Positions 1-17,104 of a DNA stretch of 17,104 nt are shown one piece after another. Source of the DNA: Chrysochromulina parva (taxonomy: Eukaryota > Haptophyta > Prymnesiales > Chrysochromulinaceae); NCBI GenBank assembly GCA_002887195.1, contig PJAB01001118.1:1-17104 (forward strand), given 5' to 3'. Position 1 is the first letter of the stretch; the number at the start of each line of letters is the position of its first letter. A program made the translations under genes and the position numbers. The notes under the pieces are model-generated. The model ran no database searches, was not told the DNA's origin, and worked only from the letters and a program-made list of their open reading frames with translations.

Positions 1-92
1 TTGAGCTAGAACTCAATGGGAGTGCGTGGGACACCTCTGGCTTGAGTTTCGTTCAAATCCCTTCAGTACTTTTGGAGATCAGTTTTTGCCCC

Positions 93-119: not shown

Positions 120-2338
120 TGCCCCAGCGCTCTTTCGCGCTCACGCCCGATGTGTGCGTCTGCGTGCTGTCGTACCAGCGGCTTGACTTACTCCGCACGA
201 CGCTGCGCTCCATTATCGATCACATCGAAGCGGACGAACGCGGCGTCTCCTACGAGCTCGTGTGGGTTGACAACGGGTCAGACAATGCCGAGCGCCGAGC
301 CGTGCACGCTGAGTTTGCATTTGAGAAGGCGCTCTTCCTTGGGACCAACTATGGCATGGCGTACGGCTTCAACACACTCTTCTTCCGGCTCTGTTCGGCA
401 CCATACTTCTTAACACTTGAAGAGGATTGGGAGTGGATTGGCGCCCGAAAGAGCGTGCTGCTCGATGCTATGAGTGTGCTGCGGCACGACACGTCCATCT
501 CGGGCGTGTTTCTGCGGCCCGATACGCTCGACCAGTTCTTGGCACGCTCGGCATGGCGTCGCACCGCGCCTGCAGCCGCCGTGGCTGTCGACGCCAGCGG
601 CCGCACCGCACCGGGTGCCTCTGGGAAGGGTGGAGGCGTTCAGTACGCCACCTACTGCATGGACAGACAGGCGGCGTACTTGTGGGGAGCCTACTCGAAC
701 GGCCCTGGGCTCTACGACCGCGTGCGGCTTCAGCAGCGTGTTGGACGGCAGTTTGGGGAGCCCGGCGACCGCTTCCCGGACGTAAACTCCGAGAGCAACT
801 ACGCGTACCGGGTCGGAACTGCTGGGCTGTGCTCCGCACTCCTTCGAGTGTCGCCTGGGTGCGAGGGCGTGCATACATGTAATGGGCAGCTCTTCCGACA
901 CCTTGGGGACGAGCGCTCACATGGCTACGGCACGGGGCGGAAGCCCGAGGCCCGCTGGGTGCTGTACGGCTCAAATCATTCATACGACCCCCACGTCGTC
1001 CAGCTGCGCGCCCTTGACATCGAGCCAAGCTCGCACTGGCTGTCGATGTACCTGACGCATGGCGAGCAAGCTGCGCCAGTGGTCGACGGGGGGCGGCTCG
1101 CTGTGCTCATTGCGGCACGCGCGCACTCCCTGGCGCCCATCGTGCGCATGGCGCGTGCCGCCTTGTTCTCGGCACATGCGCCTGAGATGCTCGAAGTACT
1201 CTGGCTGCTACCTACCCACGAGGGCGTGAGCGACGGGGCCGCCGCCGCCGAGGGAGGGTCTGCCGCAGTGCCCTCGGAGCGCCTTGCGAATGAGTGCGCA
1301 GCCGCCTCGGCCCAGCTGCGGGACGAGCTTGCGACGCGCGCGCAACGCCCTGTGCACACGCGAGCGCCCGGCGGGCAAGTGCTACGATGCATTGCCCCCC
1401 TACGCGAAGCGAGCACACTGGCGGAGCGCTTCAGCGTGCTCGCGAGCGCCACCAACGCTCAGCTGCTCTGGCTGTGCCCACGGCTGGTCACACGCGTCTC
1501 TTACGAATCAGCAGGGACAGCGCCGTCGCAGGCGGGCGCCGTTGCGGGCGCGCATGCCAAGCCCGCGCCCAGCCGCATGCAATCGGGCCCGTTGTGGGAC
1601 CAGCAGGCCCGATTGCACTTTGTGGGCGATGGCGACGTGCGGGCCTTCGCGAAGGATCGCCTGTTACTGCTGCAGGCCGCGCCAGCGAGCGACGGCGGCC
1701 CGCCCGCCAGCGTGCCCAACGGCCACGTGCTCGTGCATCGCGATGCGCTCGATCATTTGGGATACGTGGGCCCACCCGCGGCAGGCGCCTGCTGGCTCCA
1801 CTTCTCGTTGCACATGCAGCTCGTCTTTGGGTCCGTCGGCCGCTACCGGCTGCTCGAGGGCGTCCTCGTGGAGGAGACTGACGAAGCCGATGGGGCGCCA
1901 CGTCACGAAGCCGATGGGGCGCCACGTCACGAAGCCGATGGGGGCTCCAACGGCAACGTTTATGGCCGCGACGCTGGGCAAGCGGAGGCACCGATTGCCG
2001 GCACAGCGCTCCGAGAGGCGTTCCAGCGGGCCACGGTGCAGAGAGCCATTGACACGCATCGGATCGAGCATCTCATGCTGGCTCTCAAGCTCAAGACACG
2101 CTCGGCGCTTGAGGGCGCCACCGCCGCGTACGTGCGCTTCGCCGAGCTGTACAACGCTGGCGAGCTCGCACGGGCGTGGCCCGTCCTGGCTGAGGTGCTC
2201 TGGGGGTTGCTCATCGTCGATCGCTCGGACGACTGGGTGCTCCGCGACATGGTCAGCCCCAGCATGCTGAGTGCGGCACAAGATTTGCAGGGGACACTCT
2301 TGGATAGGTTTGCGGCGGCGGCCTACCGTACCGCGTAG
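119..2338 (+). CDS. GT-A-fold glycosyltransferase-like protein (739 aa), possibly with a second degenerate GT-like half
   Basis: Single open frame. No in-frame ATG lies between an upstream in-frame TGA (2-4) and the ATG at 119, so that ATG is the chosen start; an unseen 5' exon cannot be excluded. The first ~330 residues resemble family-2-type nucleotide-sugar transferases: a beta strand (VCVCVLSYQR), DNGS at residues 51-54, the NYGMAYGFN segment near 77-85, and an acidic EEDW motif at 101-104 in the place of the metal/nucleotide-sugar binding DxD. A conserved-looking block with SNGPGLYDR and GDERSHGYGTG follows. Residues ~330-610 again read like a GT-A domain (strand-helix start, VLVHRDALDHLGYVG), but the expected acidic motif is absent. 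A tandem EADGAPRH repeat lies near residues 590-605. There is no clear signal peptide or membrane segment, which is odd for a Golgi enzyme. Acceptor and sugar are unknown. The GT-A assignment is moderately secure; the second half is inference. Confidence 0.7.
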   Translation: MPQRSFALTPDVCVCVLSYQRLDLLRTTLRSIIDHIEADERGVSYELVWVDNGSDNAERRAVHAEFAFEKALFLGTNYGMAYGFNTLFFRLCSAPYFLTLEEDWEWIGARKSVLLDAMSVLRHDTSISGVFLRPDTLDQFLARSAWRRTAPAAAVAVDASGRTAPGASGKGGGVQYATYCMDRQAAYLWGAYSNGPGLYDRVRLQQRVGRQFGEPGDRFPDVNSESNYAYRVGTAGLCSALLRVSPGCEGVHTCNGQLFRHLGDERSHGYGTGRKPEARWVLYGSNHSYDPHVVQLRALDIEPSSHWLSMYLTHGEQAAPVVDGGRLAVLIAARAHSLAPIVRMARAALFSAHAPEMLEVLWLLPTHEGVSDGAAAAEGGSAAVPSERLANECAAASAQLRDELATRAQRPVHTRAPGGQVLRCIAPLREASTLAERFSVLASATNAQLLWLCPRLVTRVSYESAGTAPSQAGAVAGAHAKPAPSRMQSGPLWDQQARLHFVGDGDVRAFAKDRLLLLQAAPASDGGPPASVPNGHVLVHRDALDHLGYVGPPAAGACWLHFSLHMQLVFGSVGRYRLLEGVLVEETDEADGAPRHEADGAPRHEADGGSNGNVYGRDAGQAEAPIAGTALREAFQRATVQRAIDTHRIEHLMLALKLKTRSALEGATAAYVRFAELYNAGELARAWPVLAEVLWGLLIVDRSDDWVLRDMVSPSMLSAAQDLQGTLLDRFAAAAYRTA
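1883..1944 (+). repeat. 24-bp tandem repeat within the glycosyltransferase gene
   Basis: Two identical 24-bp units (1883-1906 and 1907-1930) and a third partial unit (1931-1944) encode EADGAPRH twice and then EADGG. The unit is a multiple of three and keeps the frame, so copy number can vary without breaking the protein. It lies in a low-complexity linker near the end of the second GT-like half. Confidence 0.9.
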
Positions 2339-3065
2339 ACACGCGGCGCAAAGCCTTATGCTTATCGGGGACATCACGGGCGACGCCTCGCCAGCCGTCC
2401 CAGTACGATTACAAGACTCTTAGGAAATACACGGAGACAGGACTCGACAGCTCGGTGGTGCGGTGGAGTCGCCAGTCAAGTCGACCGCGGGGTCCGCTTC
2501 CGGGCCGACCGCTCCACACACCACAGCGCATGACCACCGGCGGTCCAGCACTGGGCATCTGGCACTGGGTCAGCGCACCCCGGGCCACCGCGCGCCTATT
2601 GATGCGCCTTTGACCGGCTCGGGGCCCACCCGCACCCGCACGTGCGACAGGTCGTCGCCCGGGCGTGGTCGAAGTCCGAATAAAGTCCGAACGACGTAGA
2701 ACGACGAGTCCGCGCGGAACGTCAACCATGACGTCAACGTGACGCGCATGGTGACGCGTCGCTCCGCTCGAACTTCAGAGTCCGGTGAGACTCAGACTGG
2801 AACACCATGCGAATGCTCCCTACCTAGAATTCATACATGGGTCTGAGACGTAGTATGGCTAGATATCTAACAAATTCGAGGGGATAGCGATAGGCGGCGA
2901 AGGCAGAGGGACGGATCGAACAAGCTGCTCAACAGCTCAAGCTCCAGCTTCAAGCTCTTCGTGCCGATTTTTCGAGGAGAGAGCGTCGTCACACGTGTCC
3001 GACGGACGGCGAGCGAACGAGGCTCCGCTGCCACTTGCCACCACCAGGCACCAGCACACAGTCAC
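2339..3065. other. intergenic region between convergent genes, no gene recognised
   Basis: About 727 bases separate the stop of the glycosyltransferase from the stop of the minus-strand small gene, so both 3' ends point inward. Short open frames on both strands have biased, shadow-like composition and no recognisable motif. An AATAAA hexamer occurs at 2679-2684 on the plus strand, but it is 340 nt from the stop and need not be a polyadenylation signal. The stretch near 2930-2965 is rich in AGCTC/AAGCTC words. I see no tRNA, snRNA or mobile-element hallmark. Confidence 0.5.
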
Positions 3066-3509
3066 TCAGCTTCGCTCTTGCCACAGCACCAAATCCTGGG
3101 CACCGATGCCCAATTCTTCAATCGTCTGCGGCACGTCCATCGCCTTGCCGTCATAACCAATCACTTTTTTGGTCAGTTGCACGGGTTTGTTATTAAAGTA
3201 GCAAATAATATTGCGTGGGTTCTTGATCCACCCAGAAGGTTTGCTGGTCATTTTGTTGGTCTTACGGTCCATCGTCGTAACCATCGGTGTCAAGACCTTG
3301 TTGTATGCCTCCTTGGCCACGTCCAACTTATTGTAGCCAGCTACGATCGCGTCGATCATCTCCTGGACAGTAGCGGACTCATTGACGACGAGCTGGTGAC
3401 CGTCCGGAGACGTACTATTTTCGGCCAGTCGGAGGATCCATGGCGTGTAGCAATTGACTGGGGCCACAAATTTTACCTTGATTCTGATCTTTTCACTGCC
3501 GAGGTCCAT
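3066..3509 (-). CDS. small uncharacterised protein (147 aa), possible beta-grasp/ubiquitin-like fold
   Basis: The minus-strand frame runs from an ATG at 3509 (MDLGSEKIRIKVKF) to a stop at 3066-3068. The frame is open 48 nt further upstream only through a GTG, so the internal ATG is preferred. The protein has a conserved-protein feel: a beta strand (IRIKVKF), a helix after ATVQEMIDAI, and a C-terminal pattern (TIEELGIGAQDLVLW) resembling the last helix and strand of ubiquitin-like beta-grasp domains. There is no diglycine tail, membrane segment or signal peptide. I do not recognise the family. Its base composition is visibly lower in GC than the flanking genes, with AATAATATTG and TTTTTT-type runs in the coding strand or its complement, suggesting different selection or a different origin. 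It is transcribed away from the kinase gene. Coding status is fairly likely; function is unknown. Confidence 0.6.
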   Translation of the reverse strand: MDLGSEKIRIKVKFVAPVNCYTPWILRLAENSTSPDGHQLVVNESATVQEMIDAIVAGYNKLDVAKEAYNKVLTPMVTTMDRKTNKMTSKPSGWIKNPRNIICYFNNKPVQLTKKVIGYDGKAMDVPQTIEELGIGAQDLVLWQERS

Positions 3510-3866
3510 CGCAGCGTGCAATCTCACCCGCAGGTTTCTTGTGCACCAGCGTGCCACAGGCCAGACAGACCACTCGAGATTGACGTGAGTGAGAGTGGGT
3601 ATCCGAGCAAGAGAGAGACAGTCCAGAGCGCGGTGGCCGGCCGAGTGTCTTCTCGTTAGAGCGCTCCAAACGAATTTGCACGAAGTAGGAACTCCGATTC
3701 CGGTTCAAAAACACCGCGGGGGGGAGCCGGGACACACATACCGGTACGCACCGGCGCGTGAGCATACCGGTACCGGTACGCTGTAATCCAGGCGGCGATC
3801 GTAAGGGGTCTCGACCAGCGCTAACGTTCACACCGAGTTCACACGCCAGGCTTTCTTTCCAACGCC
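3510..3866. promoter_or_regulatory. divergent intergenic region with ACCGGTACG repeats
   Basis: The small minus-strand gene and the plus-strand kinase are head to head, so their promoters should lie here. CATACCGGTACG occurs at 3737-3748 and, as CATACCGGTACCGGTACG, at 3763-3780. The latter contains the palindrome CCGGTACCGG. The spacing and self-complementarity could suit a dimeric factor, though a simple repeat is equally possible. A G-run lies near 3718-3724. No convincing TATA box is visible. Confidence 0.35.
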
Positions 3867-6103
3867 ATGGACGTGGTGGAGCCCCTGCCGGAAGCGCCAT
3901 TGGTCCTCGGCAGCAATCCGCAGCACTCCGACTTTTCGGTCATCGAGGAGTTGCACCGCTCTTCGGGCGGCACCGTCTACCTCGCGCGGCATCGGCCGAG
4001 CGGCCGCAAGGTCGTGCTAAAGGAGCGGCGCGTCTCTGAACTCGGACGTGACCATGAGCTGGACAATGAGGTCGAGCTCTACGAGCGCGTTCCGAGGCAT
4101 CCGAACCTGATCGCCTACCTCGGTTCGTACCGCCGCGGCGCGGCCGCCGGCCGCCGCGAAGGGCAGAGATCCGACGGCCAGATACTCGTGATGGTCTTCG
4201 AGTATGCGCCGCAGGGGGACCTGCACCGCGCGCTGCTCAAGCAGCGCTCCTCGGGGCGCTACCTGGGTGAGACGATGCTGCTGCAGTGGTTCTTGCCCAT
4301 CGCGGCGGGCGTGCGCCACCTGCACAAGCACGGCGTGGTGCATCGCGACCTCAAGAGCCTGAACATCGTGCTCTGCGACGGAGTGCCCAAGATCTGCGAC
4401 CTTGGCATCTCGCGCTTCCGCTCGGATGAGACGGTGTTCATGAGGTCCTTCTGCGGCACGCCTGCATACCTGAGCCCTGAGATGGTCGCCACGCAGCCCT
4501 ACACCGAGAAGACCGACGTGTGGGCGCTCGGTGTGCTGCTGGTCGAGCGTCAGCTGATTGCCTTTGATTGCATCTCTGACGGCCTCTCTGATGGCCGCAC
4601 GAATGGCCTCCCTCATCAGGTGTGCTGCTGTACGAGCTCGCGGCGCTCCGATTGCCCTTCGTCGGCCAGTCGATCATCGACATCTCCAAGCTGATCTCGA
4701 GGGGTGAGTACCCGCCGCTGCCCTCGCATTACTCGCCGCAGCTGTCCCACCTCGTCGCCGATATGCTTCAACTCGACGCCGCGCAGCGCCCGTCCGTCGC
4801 TGAGGCGAGCCGCCGCGCGCAGGCCATGCTCGCTGAGCGCGTGGCGTCCAAAGCGTCGCGCGAGCTCACGCGGGGTGAGCGGCGCGACCGCCCGGCGGCC
4901 GCTGAGCCTCCGATGGCTGAAGCGGCCGCGGCCGGTGGAAGCGCTGCCATGGGCGGCGCGGCCGGTGGAAGCGCTGTCATGGGCGGCGCGGCCGGAGGGA
5001 AGGGCGCCTCAAGAGGAGTCGACGAGGAGGCGGATGCGATGCCGCGCCGACTTGTGCGCCGCGAGGCTGACGCCCTGCTGCCGCAGCCACCGCGGTCGCA
5101 GCAGCAGCAGCAGCACCACCACCAGCAGCACCAGCAGCAGCAGCATTCGCCGCCCGCCGACCCTGCGACCGCCGCCTTGGGCGACCCGACGGCGCCACCG
5201 TCGCGTGCCACCCCTCGCCCGGCCGGCGTCAAGCGGACAGACCCCGCAGCTGTGGCGATCCCGACGAACCCGACGAACCCGACGAAACTGGTAACCGCCG
5301 CTGTGGCGATCCCGCCGCCGCCGCCATCTCATTCCGAGCCGTCGCCCGCGCCGTCGCAGCTGCCCACCGGCGTCGTGCCGCTCGCCTGCGTGCCCAACAT
5401 CGCCGCCGCGCGCGCCGAGCTGCCCCCCTCCCGCGGGTCCGACGCGTCCGCGGTGAGCCTGCGCGAGCAACGGCTGCAGCAGCGCGCCCTCGAGCGCCGC
5501 CGCCCGTCGACCTCCGGCAGCGCCGGCGAAGGCGCCGGAGGCGGCGTCTTCGTGGGCGGCGGAGGTCGAGAGCTGTGGATGCCCGCCACGGCGCCCGTTA
5601 CGCCGCAGCTCACGCAGTCATCGACGCCCCCCACCTCTGGCACGCCGCCGGGCGTCGTGCCTGGCGTGTCACTGCCCGAGGAGCACCGTGACTGGAGCGC
5701 CGCGGAGGTGGAGGCCTACGTGCTCGCTCAGCAGATGCAGCGTCTGCATGCACGCGCGGGAGAAGCGCAACAGGCGCTGCTCCCATCGGGCGCCGTGTCG
5801 GGCGCGCCCATGACAGCGCTGCGCCCGGGCTCCTCTACCGCTTCGTCAGCGTCGGGCGCTGTGTCGGGCGCCTCACGCCCCACGACGGCGCAGAGCAACC
5901 GCCCTCCCCACTTGGGCGACACGCCGGCACAGACACCCCAGGGGGATCAGTTCCTTCGGATCCGCAAGGAGCGCGTCGCGCGGCTCCTCAGCCCTGCAAG
6001 CGCGCCGCTCCAACCTGCGGCCGCTGGTGCCACACGCGCCAACGGCAAGGACGGCGGCTTTGCGGGGCGCTACGACATCATCTCCGGAGACTACCGATTA
6101 TAA
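3867..6103 (+). CDS. NEK-like serine/threonine protein kinase with long low-complexity tail (two exons, 715 aa)
   Basis: Exons 3867-4530 and 4620-6103; removing 89 nt restores a frame that otherwise breaks inside the kinase domain (ALG|VLLYELAALRLPF). The kinase domain covers roughly residues 22-295: a degenerate glycine loop (RSSGGTV), catalytic Lys52, probable alphaC Glu68, HRDLKSLN with Asp161 and Asn166, DLG (178-180) instead of DFG, and an activation segment FCGTPAYLSPEM with Glu205. DLGIS and GTPAYLSPE point to NEK-like kinases, which in general act in cilia, centrosomes and mitosis; the subfamily is inferred. Residues ~297-715 are Ala/Pro/Ser/Gln rich and probably disordered, with 10-residue repeats, a Gln/His tract and a distinctive end (GRYDIISGDYRL). 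All core catalytic residues are present, so activity is expected. The substrate is unknown. Confidence 0.85.
4531..4619 (+). other. intron of the kinase gene, bounded by a perfect 12-bp direct repeat
   Basis: GT-AG intron of 89 nt (TCG|GTGTGC ... ATCAG|GTGTGC). GGTGTGCTGCTG occurs at 4530-4541 and again at 4619-4630. Only this choice of ends within the duplicated segment gives GT and AG together and restores the conserved kinase reading ALGVLLYEL. The 5' splice site lies inside the first repeat copy and the acceptor abuts the second. This is what a target-site duplication around an inserted intron would leave. The interior has CTGATTG, CTCTGAC and CTCTGATGG words and a final AATGGCC tract like the FIG4 intron. 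Confidence 0.88.
4931..5000 (+). repeat. 30-bp tandem repeat in the kinase tail
   Basis: Two near-identical 30-bp units and a partial third encode AAGGSAxMGG repeats directly after the kinase domain. The frame is preserved, and the units differ at one base (GCC versus GTC). Confidence 0.85.
5099..5148 (+). repeat. CAG/CAC microsatellite encoding a Gln/His tract
   Basis: Interspersed CAG and CAC codons give runs of Gln and His within the disordered kinase tail. The interruptions by CAC probably slow slippage. Confidence 0.9.
5249..5314 (+). repeat. duplicated coding segment with 9-bp tandem units
   Basis: GCTGTGGCGATCCCG occurs at 5249-5263 and 5300-5314, 51 bp apart and in frame (AVAIP twice). 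Between the copies are three CCGACGAAC-type 9-bp units. No GT-AG pair fits, so I read it as coding duplication. Confidence 0.75.
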
Positions 6104-6393
6104 GACTCACGACACAGTGTCCACAGTCGACAGTGCATGCAGCATACCGGCAGACACCACAGCCGCGCTGAAGCCGTTGTCGGGTAGCCTCGGTTCGCTT
6201 CACCACACATCAGACGTGACTCACGTACCCCCCCGCCCGTAGCCCGTACGTTCCAGTGGATCGGTGCGAGGTTCAGGAGTCAGGATGAAAGTGGAAAGAA
6301 GATCGATCTTATTATCACTTCCACCAAGGATACGTTTGACTAAGTACACTATGACCACTTGCAGTGTGTGTTGACTAACCTTGGTCCGACTGT
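6104..6393. other. intergenic region between convergent 3' ends
   Basis: About 290 bases lie between the kinase stop and the stop of the minus-strand LRR gene, so both genes end here. It contains the 12-bp palindrome AAGATCGATCTT (6299-6310) and is more AT-rich from 6290 to 6375 than its surroundings. I see no gene and no canonical AATAAA. Confidence 0.5.
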
Positions 6394-9300
6394 CTAGAAT
6401 TCCTCCTGCTCCTCCTCCTCCTCCACTTCATCGTCGTGCTCGCCTGTGCCATCAGCATCGCTGTAGCCATCGTCGTCCTCCTGCACTTGCTCCTCCTCGT
6501 CCGCGCCCGAGCCAGCGCCGCTCGCGCCACTCTTCTTGTCGCCGGCGTGGCCGCCAACCTGGTATCCAAACGAGCGGCGCCATGTGTCCACGCCGCCCGG
6601 CATCAGCCGGCGCACCTCACGCTTGAACGTCGTGAGCCCGAAATCGTCGCCGAAGCGCAGCTGCATGTTGCCGTGCTGGAAGCGGATCGCGACGACGGCC
6701 TGGTCGCCCGCCAGAAAGTCGACCTCGATGAGCGACGACCAGCGGAACTTGGCGTCCTCTTGAAGCAGCTTCATGCCGTCCCGCCGCCCCGAGCGCCTCT
6801 CGGCAGCCGTCAGCTGGGGGTCGCACATAAAGTAGCTCGGGTCCTCGATGAAGAGATAGAGCGAGATCGACGAGATCACGGCGACGCGCGGCAGCACGCG
6901 CCCGGTGGACAGCTCGAGCTTCTCCACTTGCATGTACAAGCGCACCTCCTCGGTCGCCGGCTCGAGCAACTTCTCGCGCAAGATCCTCATTGTCTTCGCC
7001 TCGACCTCCATCGGCGCTGGGTGCGCGAGTGGGTTGAGGTTGCGGATGGTCTTCGCGATGGTGTCGGCCACATGGAGCGGAAGCAGGCTGAACTGGAGCG
7101 CCTTCGCGGGCTTCTCCAGCGTGACGCGATGACGCGACCACAGGATCTGTACTCGCTGGCACATGCCCGGCTGCGCGCCCCAGCCCAGGGCGATCTCGTG
7201 CACCTCGCGGAAGGCAAAACGTTGCAGGGGGTCGGGGCCGGTTGGGCAGAACAGGTGCGGGTCGCACACGGTGCACCGTTGGAGTAACGGCTCCCTGAGC
7301 ATGTAGTACGCTCGGTTCGTCACCACGAGGAGCCGGCGCTTCTTCGTCGGCTCGAGGCGCACCCATGAGGCGATGATGACGCGCTCGGGCTCGGGGAAGA
7401 TCTTGCGGCTCGTCAGATGCGGCTGGAGCGCCGTCTCATACCTGTGGGGAAGGGGACGGGGCGCCGTGGTGAGTACTTGCATGCAAGCCTAGCTGCTCGA
7501 GCGCCGTCTCGTACATGCGCCTCTGCACGAGCATCAGGAGCGTCTGCATGAACGAGGGGCGCAGCGCGAGCTTATGCTCCACTTCGTAGCGCGCAAAGGT
7601 CTCCAGTAGCTCCCAACGGGTGTCCTCATTCACGCACAGATGCTCGGCAAGGAGGCGGGTGAGCGACGACGCGGTCGCCTGACGGAACATGGCCGCATCG
7701 GCCTCCTCCGCCGTCCAGACCGCGTAGGAGAGGAGATTCTCGTAGTACAGATACTTGATGAGCTCCCGCATCTCCGCGACCGGGAGCAGCAGCTGCAGCG
7801 TGAGCTCCTTACAAGCGCGGTTCACTTCGGTATCGTCAGCGAAGTGCATATGCGTGATCGTGTCGCACATGACGCTGTACGTGAGCACGACGGAGCGCAG
7901 AAGACGCTCCTCCTGCTCGCCCATCGGCTTGATCTGGCTCGACGAGAGGCCCGCCTTGATCACCTTGTTGATCTTGGCCTGGAGCATTTGCATGCACGAG
8001 CGCAGCATGACCGTGAGCATGTCGTACAGCATGACATTCGAAGAGTCCTCCTTGAGGGTATTGGGCGCCATCTTGATCAGCTCCTGGGCGATCAGGAGCA
8101 GGTTGGGTCCGACGTTGGCGGGGTACCACGTGGTGTTGGTCACGTCGTCCGCCAGGCAGATGAGCGTTCGCAGCAGCGACACGTCGCGCAGCGCATCGAG
8201 GGTCGCGCGCTTCGTCGCTTCGGTGCCGTAGCGGATGAGCGCGAGGAGGACTCGGAACGCGGCTCCCACGGCCTGCCCCTCGTTGCTCGTCGTCTCGAGG
8301 TCGGCTGCGTTGGGCGCTCCCACGGTCCCCTTTCGCAGCACCGCATCGACGTTCTGGCTGGCCACGTCGAGGGAGAGCGCGTGCAGATGCGGCGTGAAGA
8401 GGAACTCGTACCCTTCGATCTTGATGTCGGGCAGGTCCTTGGTCTTCTCGTCCGTCGAGACCATCTGTTGGTCCACGAGTTGCTGCTGCTTCTTGGCCCA
8501 CGAGAGGATGCGCGCTGAGACGCCGGTGGGCGTGTACATGGTGGGCGAGATGGGGATGTTCTCGCGCAGGTAGCGCATGAGATCCGAGGTGCCGCCTAGC
8601 TGCACGAAGTTCGAATGCTGCAGAATCCGCTGCTTGATGAGGTCGGGCGTATCCTTGGAGGTGTCACGGATCTCCATCGCGTCGGCCGACGCGATCTCTT
8701 CATCGGAGATCCGACCCTCCAGCACCTCGGCCATGCGCATCAGCACGCGCACCGCGATCTCGCCCTTGATGTCGAGCGTGTGCAGCACCTGCAGCAGCGC
8801 CGCGACGGACGAGCCCACGGCGGTGCGCTCGATTCGAATCGGCACATCCTGCCGCCCGTACGTCTCCTCGTTCATCATGATCGCCATCATCGCGTCGACC
8901 GCATCGCGTGTCTGCATGAGCTCGCACCCCTCCGGCCAGTCCGCGGACGCGGCACGCAAAAAGTTGACGCACCCGACCGAGAGCTGCGTCTTCTCCTCCG
9001 TCTCCTCGTTCGACGATCGCGTGTCGCGCCCCGTGTTGCGGACGAGGATGTCAAGCGCCATGTGGATCGTCGCCGAATGGAACCGACGGAAGTGCGCGCC
9101 CTCTTCGCCGTCGTCGAGGGCGAGCTTGGACATGATCGAGAAGGCGTGCCTCAAGATCTCCTCGGTGCGCCCGAGGGACAGGTTCTCGCAATCGGCCACG
9201 ATGCTCACTATGTTCGCCACCTCGGGCGCCTGCAGGTTGTCGAGCGGCATCTCCTCGAGGCACTCCATCACGAGCACCTTGAGGTCGTCATCGGGCACCT

Positions 9301-11958
9301 CGAGCGCGGCAAAGAGCACCTGTGGGGAGAGGGGCGTGGGCGCGCCGTGGTGAGCACTTGCATGCGAGCGGCGGCCACCACGAGCGCGGCACAGAGCGCC
9401 GTGGTGAGCACCTGCTCGCGCCCCGCGACGTCGAGCTTGTCCGACACGTCGATCGCGTCCGGGTGGCCCTCGTTGGCCTTCTTGCAGTAGACCTTGATCA
9501 GCCCCACCACCGAGCCGATCGCCTTCTTCATCTCCCTGTTGCGCAGCAGTGCCAGCGGCACCGTGCCACTCTCGTCCACCTCGCCGCACAGCTCGGCCAG
9601 CTGCTCGTACCGGCGGCCCTGGATGTAGTTGAGCATCGGCACGACGCCGCCCAGCCCCGCCGAGATCTTTTTGAACATGAGCGAGTCACAATCCATCAAG
9701 ATCGCGGCGAGCGAGCGCAGGCAGGCTCCAAGCAGCCCGGCGCGAATGTTGACCTGGGAGGAGAAGATGCGTAACAGCCGGTCGACGTAGCCCGCCTTGA
9801 GGCAGTCTTCGCGCGTCTTCTCGGAGTGGGAGCACAGCGCGGCGGTCGTGTTCACGAGCTGCTCCACCCATTTCGATTTGGGCTCTGAGAATTGACCGGG
9901 CACCGACACGGCGCTGTGATGAGCACTTGCATGCAAGGCAGGTCATCAGCATGCAATCAACGTACCTGAGAATTGACCGGGCACCGACACGGCGCCTGCG
10001 ACCTCGCTGAGCAGCTCGGTGTGCACGCCCGACTTTGCATACAGCTCAGCGGCGCGCTCGTTGTTGACCGAGGACCACTGGACGAGTCGCAGCAGCTGCA
10101 TCCGGCGCGCGTGCGGCCAGCGGCGCGTCTCGCGCGCGCGCAAGAGCGCGATCGCGCGGCGTGGCACCTCACGCAGCTCAAGCGCCGTCTTCTTGTCCTT
10201 GAATGCAGTGGCGATGACGCCGAGCATTGCCTCGCTCGGCTCCCTGTCCGAGAGCCAGCCAGCGAGCGTTGGGGCGAGCGGTCGCATCGCTTCCATGATT
10301 CCTTGGCCCTCGTCGGCGAGGGTGTGCAGCGCCCTGAGAAGCAGGTTGCGCGCGCGGTTGGGGATCTTGGGATCGTTGAGCTGCGGCAGCATCGTCGCCA
10401 TGATCGTGTCCACGACGACCGGGCCGATGGAGCCCGCGTCGAGCATGTCGATGAGCTGCTCGAGCGCGCGCTGTGAGAGTCCTTCGTTCTCGAGCGAGAC
10501 CGTGAGCACGAGCAGCCGGAGCACCTGTGGGGAGGCGAGGGCGCCGTGGTGAGCACTTGCATGCCAGGCGCAGTGGCCGGAGCACGAGCAGCCGCCGTGG
10601 TGAGCACCTTGGGCCCGACCGCGGGTTGCCGCTCGACGAGCAGCATGAGGGTCTGCACATACTCCTCGATGATGTCCGCAGGCGCGCGAAAGTCCTCGCC
10701 GTGCTCCGAGCGCTCCTTCTCCTTATCCTCGGCCTCGAGGAGCTCGAGCTCGTCGCGCATGTCGTCCTTCTCGAAGTCGAACATCACGCGCCCGCGCGGG
10801 TCGAGCGGGATGAGCTGGAGCAGCTTGTCTTGCACCTGTGGGGAGGCGAGGGCGCCGTGGTGAGCACTTGCATGCAAGGCGCTGGAGCAGCTTGTCTTGC
10901 ACCTTGGCCACAGCGTCGAGCGTCCTGTCGGGCGCGTCGAAGCACTCCATCAACTGCTTCGTCTGCTCAAACAGCTTGACGACGACGCGCTTGCCCAAAT
11001 ACTCATCGAGCGTGTTGTCCGCCTTGACCTCCTTGACCACCGCGGGCGGGTCCTTGATGCGCGAGCGCCGCTCGAGTACGCTCATCTTCTCACCGTCGAC
11101 GTCGATGATCTTGGGGCAGTTGGAGAGGATCCAGATGCGGTACCCCTCGACCTCCTCGACGAAGGGATTGCCCACGAAGGCGAGGTGGCGGAGACTCTTC
11201 TCCTTCAGGGTCACCACCTGGTCGTTGAACGTCTTCTGGTCCCAGTTCATCTGGTTGTACGACAGGTCAAGGCGCGTCAGCTGCTGCAGCGGGCTGTTCT
11301 TGAAGTTCTCCCACCCATCAGGGGAAGTTTCACTCTCGGGCCGTGTGCCGATGAGGTTGTGGCTCAGGTCGAGGTGCGCGAGCGTCTTGAAGCCCGAGAG
11401 GTCGGGGATGCCCTGAAGCCGGTTGTGCGACAGGTCGAGCACCTTGAGCCGCGGTAGCTTCTCGATGACCACCTCAAAGATCTCATTGCGCGACGCCTTG
11501 AGAATCTTGAGGGTCGAGAACTGATCGAGCGAGTCGAGCACCATGAGCTTGTTGTCGGAGAGGTTGAGCTCCTTGAGCGCGGTGCCTTTGATCGACACCA
11601 GGCCCTCGATCGAGCGCAGCTGAAAATTCGGGTGCGTGCACACCACGTAGGTCGGGTAGCGCAGCTGGTGGAGCTTCTTCGCGCCCGCGAGCTCCTGCAG
11701 GATCGGCTCCGTGAGCTCCACGATCTTCTCGGTCGGATCCCTGAGCAGATTGAGCTCCTCGGCCGTCTTACGCGCGCGCAGCAAGCGCCGCTTCCGGATG
11801 CCGGTGGCAGCGCCGTCGGCTGCCTGGCCCTCACCCTGAACCTCTACGGCCCCTCGTTCCTCATCCCCCGAGCCGCCGTGCGGCGACCGAGTGAAGTCGT
11901 CTTGCGCTTCGTCGGCGCTGCCGTCGCCCGTTGCCCGGTCGGCCGCGGGAGTATTCAT
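6394..11958 (-). CDS. large LRR / ARM-like / PH-like scaffold protein (six exons, about 1722 aa)
   Basis: Exons in gene order: 11958-10903, 10835-10608, 10524-9966, 9884-9412, 9319-7515, 7441-6394; together they give one uninterrupted frame. The ATG at 11958 is the first in-frame ATG (the frame is open to a GTG at 12048). After a disordered N-terminus, residues ~115-270 are SDS22-like leucine-rich repeats (LKELNLSDNKL, LKVLDLSHNRL, LAHLDLSHNLI, LTRLDLSYNQM), followed by an LRRcap-like segment (GYRIWILSNCPKIIDVDG). Residues ~355-1370 are almost all helical and read like ARM/HEAT repeats. The last exon has one or two PH-like segments (VIIASWVRLEPTKKRRLLVV; LPRVAVISSISLYLFIEDP) and ends in a strongly acidic tail. 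The layout suggests a membrane-associated scaffold rather than an enzyme. I cannot name a characterised orthologue. All five introns carry the same repeat core. Confidence 0.78.
7442..7514 (-). other. intron 5 of the LRR gene: introner-like, ~20-bp imperfect direct repeat
   Basis: 73 nt, CAT|GTACGA ... CCCCACAG|GTATGA; splicing restores RRMYETALQPH. The segment encoding YETAL is present both at the start of the intron and at the start of exon 6 with two mismatches over about 20 bp. The core reads TTGCATGCAAGTACTCACC, one base different from intron 1. Confidence 0.88.
9320..9411 (-). other. intron 4 of the LRR gene: introner-like, composite
   Basis: 92 nt, CAG|GTGCTC ... CCCCACAG|GTGCTC, joining DVAGREQ to VLFAALEV. 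GAGCACCT (plus strand) at 9314-9321 and 9406-9413 is the minimal repeat. The intron also holds a diverged ~25-bp copy of the start of exon 5 (GCTCTGTGCCGCGCTCG versus GCTCTTTGCCGCGCTCG), with core sequence on both sides of it. Confidence 0.88.
9885..9965 (-). other. intron 3 of the LRR gene: introner-like, 30-bp direct repeat, acceptor inside the repeat
   Basis: 81 nt, CTCAG|GTACGT ... CTCAG|AGCCC. A perfect 30-bp repeat spans 9966-9995 and 9885-9914 (SVPGQFS encoded twice). Here the donor lies just outside the first copy and the acceptor is the end of the second copy, the reverse of the other introns. A second acceptor-like CATCACAG at the end of the core would give a 52-nt intron but would shift the frame by 29 nt. 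Confidence 0.87.
10525..10607 (-). other. intron 2 of the LRR gene: introner-like, composite
   Basis: 83 nt, AAG|GTGCTC ... CCCCACAG|GTGCTC, joining AVGPK to VLRLLVL. An 8-bp repeat AGGTGCTC flanks it (plus-strand GAGCACCT at 10519-10526 and 10602-10609). The core word GTGCTCACCACGGCG occurs twice within the intron. Between the two lies GGCTGCTCGTGCTC, a copy of exon 3 sequence. Confidence 0.88.
10836..10902 (-). other. intron 1 of the LRR gene: introner-like, 24-bp direct repeat
   Basis: 67 nt, AAG|GTGCAA ... CCCCACAG|GTGCAA, between codons. A 24-bp direct repeat spans 10881-10904 and 10814-10837 (encoding VQDKLLQ twice), offset 67 bp. Between the copies sits a 43-bp core with TTGCATGCAAGTGCTCACC. 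The first copy supplies the donor and the second begins exon 2. Confidence 0.9.
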
Positions 11959-12169
11959 GTCGCTCACTGCCGTCCCGCCAAAGCCCTTCCTATCGGAAAG
12001 CCGCCCTTGTGAGGAATTCTTCGGCGCCGTGTCGAGCACTAGGAACACTGCACAGTCTCCAATCTAATTAAATCGCGCTCCACCACGGCGCGACATGAAG
12101 GATAGTTAGGGATGGAGAGAGTGCGCGTTTGTGTTTCACAGCAGGCAGCAGCAACTTGGAAGGAGGACC
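11959..12169. promoter_or_regulatory. bidirectional promoter region between the LRR gene and FIG4-like gene
   Basis: Only 211 bases separate the two start codons. A CCAAT pentamer lies at 12059-12063, followed by an AT-rich TCTAATTAAAT and a GC-rich stretch with inverted CGCGC/GCGCG. Head-to-head spacing this short implies shared regulatory DNA. Assignment of individual elements is tentative. Confidence 0.45.
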
Positions 12170-15100
12170 ATGCCTCTTCGGCAGACCATCGTGGCTCGCG
12201 TCGACCTATTCGAGAGCCCGGCGGCGTATGTGCTCGTCGGCCACGAGGGCCCTGACCTGCGCCGCGTGATGCACGTGTACCGGCCGGCGGCGGACTGGCG
12301 TCCGGGTAACATGCTGCCTGTGGAGGAGGAGAGGACGTTGTACACAGAAAAGGAGTGCATGGCGCGGCTTGCCGAGATCGGAGCGCACCACGACGCGCCG
12401 CTCGTGTGTCTGCTCAATGCGTCGGCGCTGCTCGGCATGGTGCGCTTCGTCGAGGGCTGGTACATGCTCTTTGTGACACGGCACGAGGTGGCCGGTGTCA
12501 TCGGGGGCCACTACATCTATCGCGTCGAGGAGACGGCGATGCAGGCCGTGCTCCCCGCCGCGCCGGACGCGAAGCTGTCGCCCATCCCACCGCCGCCGCC
12601 GGCCCTCTTCGCCGCCGCCGCCGCCGCAGAGGGGGACGCCCACGACGACGCCCAAGTGACGGAGCCTGAGCCTTCGTCGACCGAGGCCCGCGGCCCGCCT
12701 CCCCATCATGCTGGTCCGCCGCCCATCATGCAGGTCATCGGCAACCCCAAGGGGGGGCAGAGCCTCGTGCGCGGCGGCAAGCTCCTGCTCGCGGCCGCCT
12801 TCTCCAAGGTCGCCACGTCCCTCCAGCTCAACGCCGAGAATTGGGCCGAGACCAAGTACTGATGGGCTCTGATTGGGATTGGCTCTGATTGCTCCGAGAA
12901 TTGGGCCGAGACCAAGTACTGATGGGCTCTGATTGGGATTGGCTCTGATTGCTCCGAGAATTGGGCCGAGACCAAGGACAAGAACCTCTTCTCGTCGAGT
13001 ACCTCTGATTGGCTCTGATTGGCTCTGATTGGCTCTGATTGCCCCTAATGGCCTGCGGGTGCCTCCTTTATCAGGTACAAGAACCTCTTCTCGTCGATGG
13101 ACCTGACGCGCGACTTTTACTTTTCGTACACGTACGACCTGACGAACACGCTGCAGGAGAACATGCGCGCCAAGCCCGCGCTCAATACGGCGCCTAATAC
13201 GAAGCCGCGCGCGCCGCTGGGCGAACCTGCCGCCGCCGCGGCGGCGGCGGCGGCGGCGGCGGCGGAGGGCGGGAGCGCTGAGGGCGGTGCTGCTGGGGGC
13301 GGTGGCAGCGCGTGGGCCTCGGCGGGCTCCGGCTCGGATCCGGCGCCGCCACCCCGAGACAAGTTCATCTGGAACCACTACCTCGCGTATGGCTTGCTGC
13401 GACGGCTCCACTCGGACGCGTGGGTGCCGCCACTCGTGCATGGCTTCTTCATGCAGCTCGCCACCTCCTTGTTCGGGCGTGGGCTGACCCTCACGCTCAT
13501 CGGGCGGCGCTCCCGACACTTTGCGGGCGCGCGGTTGCTCAAGCGCGGGCTGAACGAGGCAGGTCACGTCGCAAACGAGGTGGAGGTCGAACAGATAGTG
13601 AGCGACGGCGTGCGCGGCTCTCTGCACGAGGGCGGCCTTTGCTCGGCAGTGCAGCTGCGTGGGTCCATCCCTCTTGTGTGGGGGCACGGCGAGCAGAAGC
13701 ACATGGTGCCCCGACCTGACATTCATCTGCACAAGATCGACCCGCGCCACGAGTTCACATTTCGTCACTTTGAGGAGCTGCACGAACGCTACGGCGGGCC
13801 CGTGTTCGTCTTCGACTTGATCCGGCAGCATGAGAAGCGCGCGAGGGAGACGACGCTTGGCAAGGGGCTCGCCGAGGCCCTCGAGGCGCTGCAGATGCGC
13901 TTACGCCGCGAGGGCCACCCGCTCGAGCTGCGCTACGTGCCGTTTGACTTCAAGAAGGAGTCGAAGCGCAAGGGGGGCGACGTCCTTCAGAGTATTGAGA
14001 AGATCGCCGCACACCTGACCGAAGAGATCGGTTTCTTCTCGACAGTCCCGCCACCGCAACTTGGCGCAGCCGGCGCGGGCATGCCGTCGCGGCTGCTCCC
14101 CCTCCCCCTCCCCGAGAGCCCTGCCGAGAAGGAGGCGCTCGCACGGCTGACGCTGCGCCCGGGCGACCTTCTCCCCGAGCTGGGCGCCTACGATGGCCTC
14201 GACGCACCCTCGGCTGCGTACGCGCGTGCGGCGGTTGCGAGGCGCGAGCGCGAGGCGAGCGGCGCGCCCTCTGTGAATGTGAATGTGTCGGCCGATGTGA
14301 GCGCGGAGGCGAACAGCGCGGGCGCCAGTGGGATGGCCGTGGGGGGCGCGCTCGAGCCGAGCAGGAGCGGAAGCTTTGGAGCCCGTGCGGAGCCGAGCAG
14401 GAGCGGCAGCTTCTCTCGCAGCCACTCCCTGACCAAGCAGGGTGGTGACCCACGCGCCGGCGGTGGCGCGCCGGCGGCAGAGGGGAGCAAAGGCGAGGGG
14501 GCGGCGGACGAGGATGAGGAGGATGAGGACGAAGATTACGAGGACACGGAGATTGGGAACCTCAAGATTGGCAACCTGACGAGCGCCGTGCCGAGCGGTG
14601 TGCGCGGCCTGGCCACGAGCGCCGAGCTGAGCGCCGAGCCAGCGCAGCCGCGCATCCCACGCCCGCACAGTGCAGGCTCGGGCCAACGGCTCCGGGGGAT
14701 GCTCGGCACTGGCAGCGGCTCGGCCCGCTGGGCCCCCGGCAAGGGCTGGCGAGGCGCGGAGGGAGGCGTCGTCTCGAGCGGAGGCCCCAACGAAGACGCG
14801 CCGTGTTGGCAGGATGGCGGCCGGCAGGACAGCCGCGGCGTGTGCGCCTCGGGCCGGTGCTCGCTGCAGCGTGGCGTGGTGCGCACCAACTGCATCGACT
14901 GCCTCGACCGCACCAATGTGGCACAATTCTGCGTCGGGCGCGCGCTGCTGCGCCAGCAGCTGACCACCCTGGGCTTCGTTCTCACAACCGATGTGCTCGA
15001 GGTGGCCAATGCACTGCTCATGCGCATGTACGAGGAGCTCGGCACCCAGGTGGCGCTCCAATACGGAGGCTCCCAGGCGGTGGGTACGCTCAACTCGAAC

Positions 15101-15341
15101 GAGGTCAAGGACTTTGTGCAGTCGGTCAAGCGCTTCTACCGTAACACCTTCTCAGACTTCGAGAAGCAACAGATTATGGACGTGTTCCTTGGCGTGTTCA
15201 TGCCTGGCGTGGGACCTCATATATGGGACCTCGACTCGGACTTGCACTTGCACAACCGGCCACCGCCCCACTTTTATCAACCGCTCTTCCCGGAGCGACC
15301 AGCACACGGCGCCGAGTGCGCCACCGCCACCACCACCGCCG

Positions 15342-15374
<33 letters not shown>

Positions 15375-15985
15375 CAGCCGCAGCCAAGGGGCGGAACAAG
15401 CGGCGCGAGGCGCACCGTGCCTCGTTTGATGAGTATTACGACACAAGCGTGCTCAGCTCCTTCGACGAGCTGCTCGAGCGTTCATACGTCAAAGCGCCGC
15501 CGTACACTGTGAACGCACCGTACACTGTGAAGCCCACCGCCACGCTCGCGTCCGGCTCGACGGCGGCACCTGCTGACGAGCCGGTCACCGCAACGCGCGA
15601 TGCGCCCGCCGGCTGGCTGCACACGGATGCGCTTACCGGCACCTCGGTTGACCATCCACTGTGGGCGGAGGTGGTCACTTGGGGCAAACAGGTCGAGTAC
15701 TATGGGTTTCATGAGACGGTCGATCTGTATACACTCCACGACCAAGTCGACCTGCAGGTGTTCATGCCGAAGGACTACGTCGAGTGCGACCTCTGGCAGC
15801 AACCCGTGCTGGGCCCTGTGCTTGGCGCCGTGCCGGGCGCACGGGAGAAGAGGTCGGCGGAGGACCCGTACGGGTTGCAGCCGGTCAACGAGAGCTTCTA
15901 CCAGGAGTACTGCGACTCCGCGGCCGACGACAGGCGGTTCCTGGCGCGCCACGAGTCGTTGTGGGCGGTACACAGCTCGGAATGA
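12170..15985 (+). CDS. FIG4: FIG4-like Sac-domain phosphoinositide phosphatase (two exons, about 1198 aa)
   Basis: Exons 12170-12855 and 13075-15985; the ATG at 12170 is the first in-frame ATG and has a purine at -3. The Sac catalytic signature RTNCIDCLDRTN is intact, with Cys835 and Arg841 forming CX5R. FIG4-type features include the N-terminal pattern through VRFVEGWYMLFVTRHEVAGVIGGHYIYRVEET, then MDLTRDFYFSYTYDLTNTLQ, FIWNHYLAYGLL and FDLIRQHEKR. FIG4 enzymes remove the 5-phosphate of PI(3,5)P2 on endolysosomal membranes, working with VAC14 and a PIKfyve/Fab1 kinase. The protein is longer than typical FIG4 (about 900 aa) because of low-complexity inserts: a Pro/Ala block at ~130-205, a poly-Ala/Gly block at ~260-320, a ~275-residue Ser/acidic insert at ~551-825 just before the catalytic motif, and an Ala tract near 970-1000. 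No transmembrane segment is seen, which also favours FIG4 over Sac1. The symbol reflects family, not proven orthology. Confidence 0.87.
12836..12976 (+). repeat. 60-bp tandem duplication across an exon-intron boundary
   Basis: Copies at 12836-12895 and 12896-12955 are identical, and 12956-12976 repeats the first 21 bases. Each full copy carries the same potential donor CCAA|GTACTG, so the gene has two consecutive identical 5' splice sites. Confidence 0.95.
12856..13074 (+). other. intron of the FIG4-like gene with nested duplications
   Basis: 219 nt, CCAA|GTACTG ... TTTATCAG|GTACAA; splicing gives ENWAETKYKNLFSSMDL, matching the FIG4 pattern. A 60-bp unit covering the last 20 nt of exon 1 and 40 nt of intron is perfectly duplicated (12836-12895, 12896-12955). 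A third partial copy fuses directly to a copy of the exon 2 start. Four CTCTGATT-containing 10-bp units follow (13001-13040), then CCCCTAATGG, a plausible branch site. Use of the second donor (12916) would read into a stop immediately. Confidence 0.88.
12978..13097 (+). repeat. 21-bp direct repeat flanking the last intron segment
   Basis: A perfect 21-bp repeat beginning ACAAGAACCTCTTC lies at 12978-12998 (inside the intron) and 13077-13097 (start of exon 2), offset 99 bp. The intronic copy is joined to exon 1-like sequence as if it had never been interrupted. Confidence 0.93.
13228..13265 (+). repeat. GCC/GCG trinucleotide tract encoding poly-Ala
   Basis: A run of GCC codons switches to GCG, making a self-complementary GCCGCCGCGGCGGC centre. 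It encodes a poly-alanine insert in the FIG4-like protein. Confidence 0.9.
15342..15384 (+). repeat. CCGCAG hexanucleotide microsatellite encoding poly-Ala
   Basis: Repeated GCC/GCA codons in frame, with one GTA interruption, give an Ala tract in the C-terminal part of the FIG4-like protein, after the conserved Sac region. Confidence 0.9.
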
Positions 15986-16355
15986 GTGCTGATTTGGGGT
16001 CGGACACGACTCTACGCGTGTACCGGACGTTTCTGAAGAGGGCATCTGCCCATAGATCTCCAGAGGGTCGGGGTTTTCCGGAACCAAAAGACGCCATCTG
16101 AACGCAGAGGCTTGCCGTACCGCCTACCTTTGTGTCCGGTCCCGTGGGCACACGGTCCCGTCAGAGCGCCGTGTGCAAAACACTTATTCGGAGTGTGTGC
16201 GCGCGTTGTGTTGAACAGCAGCAGCTCTTATTCGTTTCACAGCCAATTCACAACAGCAGATGTCGGCTTATAATATATGCCCGCCACGGCGCTGAAGCCC
16301 CGCGAAGAGCCGAGAGGCCGAGGAGCCGAGAGGCCGGAGCGATCGAAGCCCGCCG
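15986..16355. other. intergenic region with hairpin, TATA-like box and 5' leader repeat
   Basis: 370 bases separate the FIG4-like stop from the zinc-finger ATG. GCACACGG (16148-16155) and CCGTGTGC (16169-16176) form a perfect 8-bp inverted repeat with a 13-nt loop, in the likely 3' UTR. TTATAATATATGC at 16268-16280 is a TATA-like element about 80 bases before the ATG. The leader then holds a near-tandem GCCGAGAGGCCGAGGA unit (about 16309-16338). No further gene is recognised. Confidence 0.4.
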
Positions 16356-17104
16356 ATGCCGCCAGCCAAGAGACAGCGTACGTCGCGAGATGCCGCCGTT
16401 GCGCGGACCGTGGCGGATGTCGACTCGGACGAGGAGGATGAGATACGCCAACTTGAAGGCGAGCAGCCGGGACGGCGAGAGGGCAAGGAGCCCATCGCCC
16501 AAGCCACAGACCCACGCGGGAAGAAGAGACGGGTGCCCATGGGCGCTGCGCCTGCGGCGGCAAGCGCTGTGGCGCCGAGCGCCGCGCCAAACGCCGCGTC
16601 GCGCGCAGCATCTCCCAAGCCGTGTGCCTGCACCTGGGAAGGCTGCTACATGCGCTTCAGAGACAAGTCCGGCCTCGCAGCGCACTTGTGCAAGCACACG
16701 GGCGACCGTCCGTTCGTTTGCACCTGGGAGGGCTGCGTCGAGTGCTTCTCGCAGAAGGCCCACCTCACAGCGCACTTGCGCACGCACACAGGCGACCGTC
16801 CGTTCGTTTGCACCTGGGAGGGCTGCGTCGAGTGCTTCTCGCAGAAGAGCCACCTCACAGCGCACATGCGCACGCACACAGGCGACCGTCCGTTCGTTTG
16901 CACCTGGGAGGGCTGCGTCGAGTGCTTCTCGCAGCAGGGCCACCTCACAGCGCACATGCGCACGCAGCACTCGGCGGAGGCGGAAGCGCGGTGTTCGACG
17001 CGGCGCGCTCGTCTCGCGCGTTGGCGGGAGCAGCAGCAGCCCCTCGTCTGCCAAGCGGCGGCAAAGGGGCCGCTGCCTCTCCTGCGCCTCTTGGACGGCT
17101 TTGT
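16356..17104 (+). CDS. C2H2 zinc-finger protein, 3' end beyond the window
   Basis: ATG at 16356 opens a frame that continues to the window edge (249 complete codons). The N-terminus is basic/acidic and low in complexity, with MPPAKRQR at the start and a nuclear-localisation-like GKKRRV. Four C2H2 fingers follow: C92-C97-H110-H114, C122-C127-H140-H144, C152-C157-H170-H174 and C182-C187-H200-H205, all CX4C types with HTGDRPF linkers. The family binds DNA, or sometimes RNA, in the nucleus. Fingers 2-4 are nearly identical and have the same helix contact residues (Gln at -1, His at +3, Ala at +6). The remaining sequence (CSTRRARLARWREQQQ) is basic. A TATA-like element lies about 80 bases upstream. 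Targets are unknown and the gene may have introns further on. Confidence 0.85.
   Translation, partial: MPPAKRQRTSRDAAVARTVADVDSDEEDEIRQLEGEQPGRREGKEPIAQATDPRGKKRRVPMGAAPAAASAVAPSAAPNAASRAASPKPCACTWEGCYMRFRDKSGLAAHLCKHTGDRPFVCTWEGCVECFSQKAHLTAHLRTHTGDRPFVCTWEGCVECFSQKSHLTAHMRTHTGDRPFVCTWEGCVECFSQQGHLTAHMRTQHSAEAEARCSTRRARLARWREQQQPLVCQAAAKGPLPLLRLLDGF
16711..16977 (+). repeat. 90-bp tandem repeat encoding zinc fingers 2-4
   Basis: Units start at 16711, 16801 and 16891, with only a few base differences. Synonymous sites are as conserved as the rest, so the copies look recently duplicated or homogenised. Finger 1 belongs to the same frame and spacing but is clearly diverged. Confidence 0.93.

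Follow-up and report, generated by a model that had tools for sequence, protein, structure and literature searches.

A putative introner family in Chrysochromulina parva with long and variable duplications of exon flanks

Several described systems resemble the introns reported here. The introners of Gozashti et al. 2022 (PMC9860276) give rise to many similar introns by insertion into exons; the element supplies one splice site and the target duplication the other. That paper interprets most of them as small DNA transposons whose target duplications, if present, are short, and it cites 3–9 bp for characterized families. According to the Figure 2 legend, Symbiodinium introners bring the 3′ splice site and co-opt the 5′ site, whereas Chrysochromulina introners bring the 5′ site and co-opt the 3′ site. 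Amoebophrya introner elements (PMC7789003) are repeated, strain-specific introns of a marine protist. They are bordered by direct repeats of 3–5 nt, with inverted repeats of 8–20 nt and noncanonical splice sites. Neointrons of Daphnia pulex (PMC4202315) carry, opposite the exon that they adjoin, a direct repeat of its terminal bases (4–12 bp, 33 cases), and repair of staggered breaks has been proposed as their origin. A survey of 213 introns in four classes (Rogers and Bendich 2025, PMC11782384) reports direct repeats of 4–30 bp (mean 11.4 bp) near intron borders and interprets them as insertion footprints. Tandem genomic duplication of an exon segment has also been described as a route to a new intron (PMC4974935). 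Here we examine a leucine-rich repeat (LRR) gene in a 17,104-nucleotide stretch of the haptophyte Chrysochromulina parva (contig PJAB01001118.1 of assembly GCA_002887195.1, positions 1 to 17,104; hereafter the window). Its five introns are probably copies of one short mobile intron-making sequence, an introner, that was inserted at staggered breaks and joined through microhomology.

The LRR gene occupies positions 6394..11958 of the minus strand, with its ATG at 11958 and its stop codon ending at 6394. Removal of five putative GT-AG introns yields a single open frame of 1,722 amino acids, and no further break needs to be removed. As far as this frame shows, all introns of the gene would belong to the same family. 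A first-pass annotation had described the gene as LRR/PH-like. The first half of this description holds, as Pfam finds leucine-rich repeats and nothing else in the protein (E ≤ 0.001), whereas a PH domain gives no Pfam match at that threshold.

As that annotation had proposed, the five introns share a repeat core. The exact 18-nt sequence GCATGCAAGTRCTCAYCA is found once in each of them, always on the minus strand, and a search of the window at up to three mismatches returns six matches versus 0.04 expected in shuffled sequence. The core is followed by CGGCGCC in three of the five introns, by CAGCGCC in intron 3, and by CGGCGCG in intron 4. Four of the five end in CCCCACAG, as had been noted earlier, and intron 3 ends in ATTCTCAG. 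The element part of intron 1 consists of the core, a branch-point-like CTCAC, and then CCCCACAG.

Each of these introns is also associated with a direct repeat of its exon flank. The lengths obtained by local alignment are 24 nt (exact), 15 nt (exact), 30 nt (exact), ∼38 aligned columns with mismatches, and 26 nt with four mismatches for introns 1 to 5, respectively, and the repeats of 8 bp that had been assigned to two copies are not recovered. The 15-nt repeat of intron 2 is part of a longer repeat with interruptions, in which GTGCTC is shared as well. Intron 3 ends within the second copy of its 30-nt flank, and ∼28 of the columns of intron 4 lie past the acceptor.

The core is not confined to this gene. 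We searched the 45.07-Mb assembly of 2,199 contigs, window included, and all genome repeat counts are lower bounds. At up to two mismatches there are at least 1,764 copies (896 forward and 868 reverse), compared with 2 and 0 for the reversed pattern. This copy number rules out a core restricted to the LRR gene, the outcome that had been named as favoring local duplication. Longer copies are built of GTACGTTGATTGCCACTGATGACCTGCCTT, next GCATGCAAGTGCTCACCAC(G/A)GCGCC, and next a C/T-rich stretch with CCCCACAG at its end. The sequence CTTGCATGCAAGTGCTCACCACAGCGC (two mismatches or fewer) occurs 201 + 228 times, with a control count of 0. Outside the genome, no exact match was found in genome_contigs, and the one exact match in IMG/VR (23 nt) falls within the terminal 60 nt of a contig of 4.5 kb. 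There, an exact core with an acceptor-like end sits at the contig tip (L090 4490-4554), and from a reading of its frames the rest of the contig looks like a cyanobacterial phage or prophage. A viral source of the element was considered on this basis and set aside, as the contig end is probably a chimeric assembly and nothing can be drawn from the match.

To describe the flanks of the family, we sampled 20 stretches of 10 kb and 40 of ∼500 bases from listed exact cores, a further 20 stretches of 326–601 bases from listed exact matches of CTTGCATGCAAGTGCTCACCACAGCGC, and the window. Because the core listing contains exact matches only, the sample under-represents cores with many mismatches; the final set of 20 stretches enriches one architecture. 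L001–L008, whose centers lie in other loci, and copies near stretch ends were excluded from the counts. The 136 copies that were kept (two mismatches or fewer) include 87 isolated ones with no same-strand core within 160 nt; the duplication tests do not include the 49 clustered copies. Duplication was scored by locally aligning the 100 nt before the core with the 110 nt after it and taking the best alignment, and the null consists of 3,000 mismatched pairs.

Duplicated flanks are a general property of the isolated copies. The score lies above the 99th percentile of the null for 67 of the 87 and above the 95th percentile for 74. In the 67 copies, the duplication is 13–45 nt long (median 26, interquartile range 21–30.5), with a mean identity of 0.93 and 22 perfect cases. 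Target duplication length in this family is thus variable and not fixed, and the earlier suspicion that the duplications are unusually long is borne out.

These lengths set the family apart from the systems described above. The core family exceeds the 3–9 bp given in PMC9860276, and its duplications are unusual in being longer than the 3–12 bp reported for introners and Daphnia neointrons in the papers compared here. It differs from the Daphnia cases also in that every insert belongs to one and the same family, and from Amoebophrya introner elements in its long repeats, the absence of inverted repeats among those looked for, and splice sites that are mostly GT-AG. The upper part of the repeat range in PMC11782384 overlaps our lengths, although that work is a survey and does not describe one mobile family. 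Unlike the introns attributed to tandem genomic duplication in PMC4974935, the copies described here have a dispersed repeat between the two flank copies. By titles and abstract openings in the open-access literature, we found no introner family with duplications as long as 13–45 nt; an earlier report is possible.

In 48 of the 67 duplicated copies, a GT..AG pair lies in register, so that splicing there would reduce the two flank copies to precisely one. The 24 shifted-register controls give 1–14 copies each, with a mean of 5.75. Moreover, spliced Pfam matches to AMPK1_CBM (L028) and to the myosin head (L022) cross introner junctions and score above the curated cut-offs, and a spliced glycosyltransferase piece (L024) matches at 6e-5, which is under its cut-off.

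The in-register copies appear to borrow a splice site in two opposite ways. In type A (donor-borrowing), the core, a C/T-rich stretch, and the acceptor all come from the element, and the duplicated exon segment supplies the donor, a GT at its left edge. These copies lack the left part of the element and carry a branch-point-like CTCAY. In type B (acceptor-borrowing), the element gives the donor and the core, the second exon copy supplies the acceptor, an AG at its right edge, and the right part of the element is missing. A script assigned 30 of the 48 copies to type A and the other 18 to type B. Fourteen of the latter start with a GTACGTTGATT-like donor owned by the element; among the other four, L055 and the window copy at 9365 read as type A, and neither type is clear for L033 and L075. 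A strict type A pattern (copies ending in CCCACAGGT) is found 109 + 96 times genome-wide (205 in total), and a strict type B pattern with the left part GTACGTTGATTG is found 21 + 11 times (32 in total); the control is 0 for both. In three copies outside the 48 (L014, L027 5009, and L071), the flank copy is followed by GCACGTTGATTG, a sign that they may be GC-AG introns.

That one core would make introns by two opposite modes of splice-site borrowing is an unusual feature, as the legend in PMC9860276 gives one mode for each of its examples. Also, because the 5′ part of a type A intron is a site-specific exon copy, the shared similarity begins well inside the intron and not near both splice boundaries. 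The filter described in PMC9860276 wants similarity near both, and type A copies fail it and could be missed. Failing a search filter leaves standing the conclusion that the sequence works like an introner.

Features of type A copies would also fit a different explanation, in which the core would be no mobile sequence but a conserved motif for splicing, namely an extended consensus of branch point and 3′ splice site that the introns of this alga have in common. The core contains TRCTCAY, which we take to resemble the branch-point consensus. In type A introns it is located close to the acceptor, and the C/T stretch after it varies freely. Nevertheless, we regard this explanation as very improbable. 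Conservation runs well past the branch point, type B copies share the left half of the element, and some copies have no intron features. The flank duplications, the core-less introns in other genes of the window, and the insert-free sites described next also speak against it.

Relatives of the LRR exon have no insert at most of the sites that they span. Protein relatives (P0001–P0023) were aligned to the spliced LRR protein, sites were compared at the protein level, and empty sites were counted among relatives of 57–76% identity that match both sides of a site. No insert is present in P0023 at sites 1 and 2, in P0022 and P0023 at site 3, in P0008, P0013, P0019, P0022, and P0023 at site 4, or in P0006, P0008, P0009, P0010, P0011, P0012, and P0018 at site 5. 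Likewise, at the introner site of the AMPK-beta-like gene (L028), P0026 (50% identity) reads across without an insert. Of the two relatives at 95–96% identity, P0024 has its start within the introner and P0025 continues through it.

Among the nearest relatives, intron 5 differs in presence, which had been proposed as a comparison between strains. P0001 and P0003 have the intron and read through, stopping just after it. It is missing from P0002 (97.8% identity) and P0004 (92.8%), which give a straight read with one flank copy (RRMYETALQPHLTSRK). P0002 and P0003 start at a start codon that directly follows intron 4, which is what frames from unspliced genomic DNA would show, and P0002 therefore probably does not represent a transcript; P0001 and P0005 read in frame through intron 4. 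The P0002 frame ends after LYMQVD where the window goes on as LYMQVEKLEL, and another strain-specific insertion may lie at this C-terminus. The simplest reading of these comparisons would be intron gain in this lineage, with site 4 the least certain. Together with the duplicated flanks and the in-register splice sites, the empty sites uphold the proposal that one element has been inserted repeatedly and would be used as introns.

A part of the repeats probably has a local origin. Of 142 copies at up to three mismatches, 54 have a same-strand neighbor within 160 nt. The 28 adjacent array pairs differ by a mean of 1.21 mismatches per 25 nt (11 are identical), compared with 2.25 for random pairs (p = 5e-5). 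Because adjacent pairs are more alike than random ones, many arrays probably arose by tandem duplication of flank-plus-element units. Both observations could be extended to the proposal that local tandem duplication of exon-intron units, by slippage or unequal exchange, made all of the repeats after ordinary insertion. This process explains arrays only. Single copies of the form X-E-X, with unrelated flanks X at dozens of loci, require a prior insertion of the element, as does the presence of one X at the sites in relatives. As an account of the duplications, we therefore find tandem duplication quite improbable.

The junctions between element and flank indicate how insertion might occur. In 16 copies, the second flank copy begins inside the right tail of the element. 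Fifteen of these share 2 nt or more with the element (null 0.132; binomial p = 9e-13) and nine share 3 nt or more (null 0.045; binomial p = 6e-9); the rule by which these copies were selected would favor overlap if the right end of the element were fixed at CAGCGC, but of the 67 alignments not one has its start right at that end, at offset 6, and three start at offsets 7–8. At left junctions without filler, four of six share 2 nt or more (control 0.108; p = 0.0017). Type A copies have between 0 and ∼31 nt of filler between flank and core. In some of them this filler corresponds to the end of the left half of the element (CTT, CCTT, or, in L020, a longer piece). In introns 2 and 4, the left flank copy has GTGCTCACCACGGCG, which is part of the core, in place of the GTGCTC of the exon. 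This looks like the result of template switching at the shared GTGCTC.

The pathway that we favor would start with a break or a pair of nicks at the target, staggered by 13–45 nt. Filling in of the staggered ends would create the flank duplication, and the free end of an element fragment would be joined through microhomology. The template could be RNA or DNA, either excised intron RNA or DNA copies. Selection would then retain those insertions in which the borrowed splice site is exactly at the edge of the duplication. Selection alone may account for the exact intron edges, since a duplication placed differently would alter the mRNA.

High copy number and target duplication are also expected of a non-autonomous DNA transposon similar to miniature inverted-repeat transposable elements (MITEs), as proposed for Micromonas and Aureococcus introners. 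Furthermore, the duplication partly provides the splice site, which matches what PMC9860276 states in its Figure 2 legend. However, the duplication length varies, truncation occurs on either side, and the free junction has microhomology. A genome-wide search for inverted pairs of exact cores, restricted to gaps of 20–50 nt and 50–80 nt, gave no pair at the shorter spacing and one at the longer (L021, 5043 on the plus strand and 5123 on the minus strand). This pair had raised the possibility that the core is a MITE terminal repeat, which was rejected as it is the only one in the genome at these spacings. We consider such a transposon improbable.

Retroposition is a more serious alternative, although we rate it only as a tentative possibility. 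In this scenario, excised intron RNA or a related small RNA would be reverse-transcribed at a nicked target by the enzyme of a retroelement. Type A copies would be 5′-truncated products primed at the intron 3′ end, and type B copies would be internally primed products that reach the intron 5′ end. The variable duplications (13–45 nt), the left truncation at differing points, and the microhomology at free junctions agree with this scenario. At least five RVT_1 matches are present in the genome, in frames of 758–2,709 amino acids, one of them with an internal stop, and the exact GTACG and CCCCACAG edges would match the ends of intron RNA. On the other hand, no poly(A) or other common 3′ tail is seen in the sampled copies, internal priming is required for type B, and a few copies without intron features have neither exact end. 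The 3′ end CCCCACAG is common to type A and not found in type B, a pattern that splicing selection could yield as well.

Several observations weigh against the view that the introns are copies of a mobile sequence inserted at staggered breaks. Twenty of the 87 isolated copies have no duplication above the 99% null, and the divergence between flank copies does not follow the number of core mismatches (rho −0.07, n = 66, with cores sampled from near-exact matches). Copies in L017, L023, and L033 have flank repeats without clear intron features (L017 1128-1206 and 1500-1554, L023 4184 and 5946-6073, and L033 252), and they apparently sit in coding or low-complexity stretches. We infer splicing of the GT-AG pairs from their register and from the Pfam domains that cross junctions. 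One of the 48 in-register copies (window 9365) was counted via a register other than the proposed one. The frame test is weak in this GC-rich genome: exact splicing is better than both frame shifts in 17 of the 48 copies, worse in seven, and tied in 24. The conserved protein domains are the better support for splicing. With regard to the mechanism, the exact edges fit selection and intron RNA ends alike, and the test for left-junction microhomology comprises six cases only.

The empty sites also have their limits. Those at sites 1 and 2 are each supported by one relative, and the count for site 5 leaves out P0015 and P0017, which diverge close to it. At site 4, P0007 (66%) has unrelated sequence before the site and P0016 (60%) starts exactly at it. 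Both may hold an intron or a frame break there, and site 4 could be older than the other sites or have been hit twice.

Two further genes in the window contain introns without the core (Table 1). The intron of the protein kinase gene begins with an 18-nt imperfect copy of the next exon (16 of 18 matching). Its removal raises the Pfam Pkinase score from 139 to 167.3 bits and extends the match from profile positions 5–189 to 5–258 of 263. The flank score of 14 is under the 95% value of 20, and the case rests on register and on the Pfam gain. In the SacI-domain gene, the intron contains a 23-nt exon flank three times and a 21-nt flank twice. Splicing increases the Syja_N score from 191.5 to 222.5 bits and the profile reach from 63–305 to 2–305.

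Table 1. Positions of introns, core copies, flank repeats, and reverse transcriptase matches. Positions are those of the window except in the last row.
Feature	Position	Strand	Description
Intron 1, LRR gene	10902-10836	-	67 nt, type A (donor-borrowing); first 22 nt are a copy of the next exon
Intron 2, LRR gene	10607-10525	-	83 nt, type A; element-like GTGCTCACCACGGCG piece interrupts left flank copy
Intron 3, LRR gene	9965-9885	-	81 nt, type B (acceptor-borrowing); starts with the element's own GTACGTTGATTG donor
Intron 4, LRR gene	9411-9320	-	92 nt, type A; element-like GTGCTCACCACGGCG piece inside left flank copy, like intron 2
Intron 5, LRR gene	7514-7442	-	73 nt, type A; presence differs between near relatives
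Core, intron 1	10858-10875	-	0 mismatches
Core, intron 2	10547-10564	-	0 mismatches
Core, intron 3	9917-9934	-	0 mismatches
Core, intron 4	9348-9365	-	0 mismatches
Core, intron 5	7467-7484	-	0 mismatches
Flank repeat, intron 1	10904-10881 / 10837-10814		24 nt, exact
Flank repeat, intron 2	10594-10580 / 10518-10504		15 nt, exact
Flank repeat, intron 3	9995-9966 / 9914-9885		30 nt, exact
Protein kinase gene intron without core	4531-4619	+	89 nt; 3′ end GGCCTCCCTCATCAG
SacI-domain gene intron without core	12856-13074	+	219 nt, TGATTG-type repeats
RVT_1 loci	C103:30237-30743; C34:41247-41879; C324; C1434; C2182		

Another sequence, TTGCCTCCCTCATCAG, occurs 1106 + 1036 times genome-wide at up to one mismatch (control 0) and is probably a second large introner family. 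Its flank test, with a null inflated by tandem arrays, places seven of 25 sampled copies above the 95% value and none above the 99% value. One could imagine a general insertion route that has no transposon of its own and puts copies of existing introns into breaks staggered by 13–45 nt, with joining through microhomology. Any intron could then become an introner. The core, TTGCCTCCCTCATCAG, and TGATTG-repeat families would spread alike, and each insertion would borrow the splice site lost by truncation. We think this broader proposal possible but unlikely. In a coarse scan for direct repeats, core-less repeats have in-register GT-AG pairs in 36 and 28 of 222 cases on the two strands, with controls of 35 and 50, which is no excess overall. 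In the same scan, pairs with the core give 12 and 12 of 75, with controls of 7 and 6. Given the lack of an overall excess, the extension beyond the core family rests on single cases. Elsewhere in the window, positions 16620-16966 hold three copies of a 90-nt tandem unit that looks coding and has no Pfam match in the one frame tested. In the genome as a whole, 58 matches to chlorophyll-binding domains and the PDB matches of one antenna protein suggest a haptophyte. This protein matches 9jj8_A and 8z11_A (iFCPI-7) best, at 311 and 295 bits, followed by 9uh3_G at 261 and the next entry at 179; 8z11, 9jj8, and 9uh3 are haptophyte structures. A second antenna protein has its best match in LHCI-11 of 9vfj (166 bits), with 9uh3_U and 8z11_I at 90 and 87 bits, and does not settle the assignment.

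The origin of new introns is a long-standing question. The long duplications, the microhomology, the two-sided truncation, and the two modes of borrowing point to an insertion chemistry other than that described for known introners, nearer to break repair or retroposition. Either half of one sequence can apparently yield a working intron. Because a site-specific exon copy occupies one end of such an intron, filters that demand similarity at both ends may miss families of this kind. The existence of near-identical strains with and without an insertion makes the mechanism testable.

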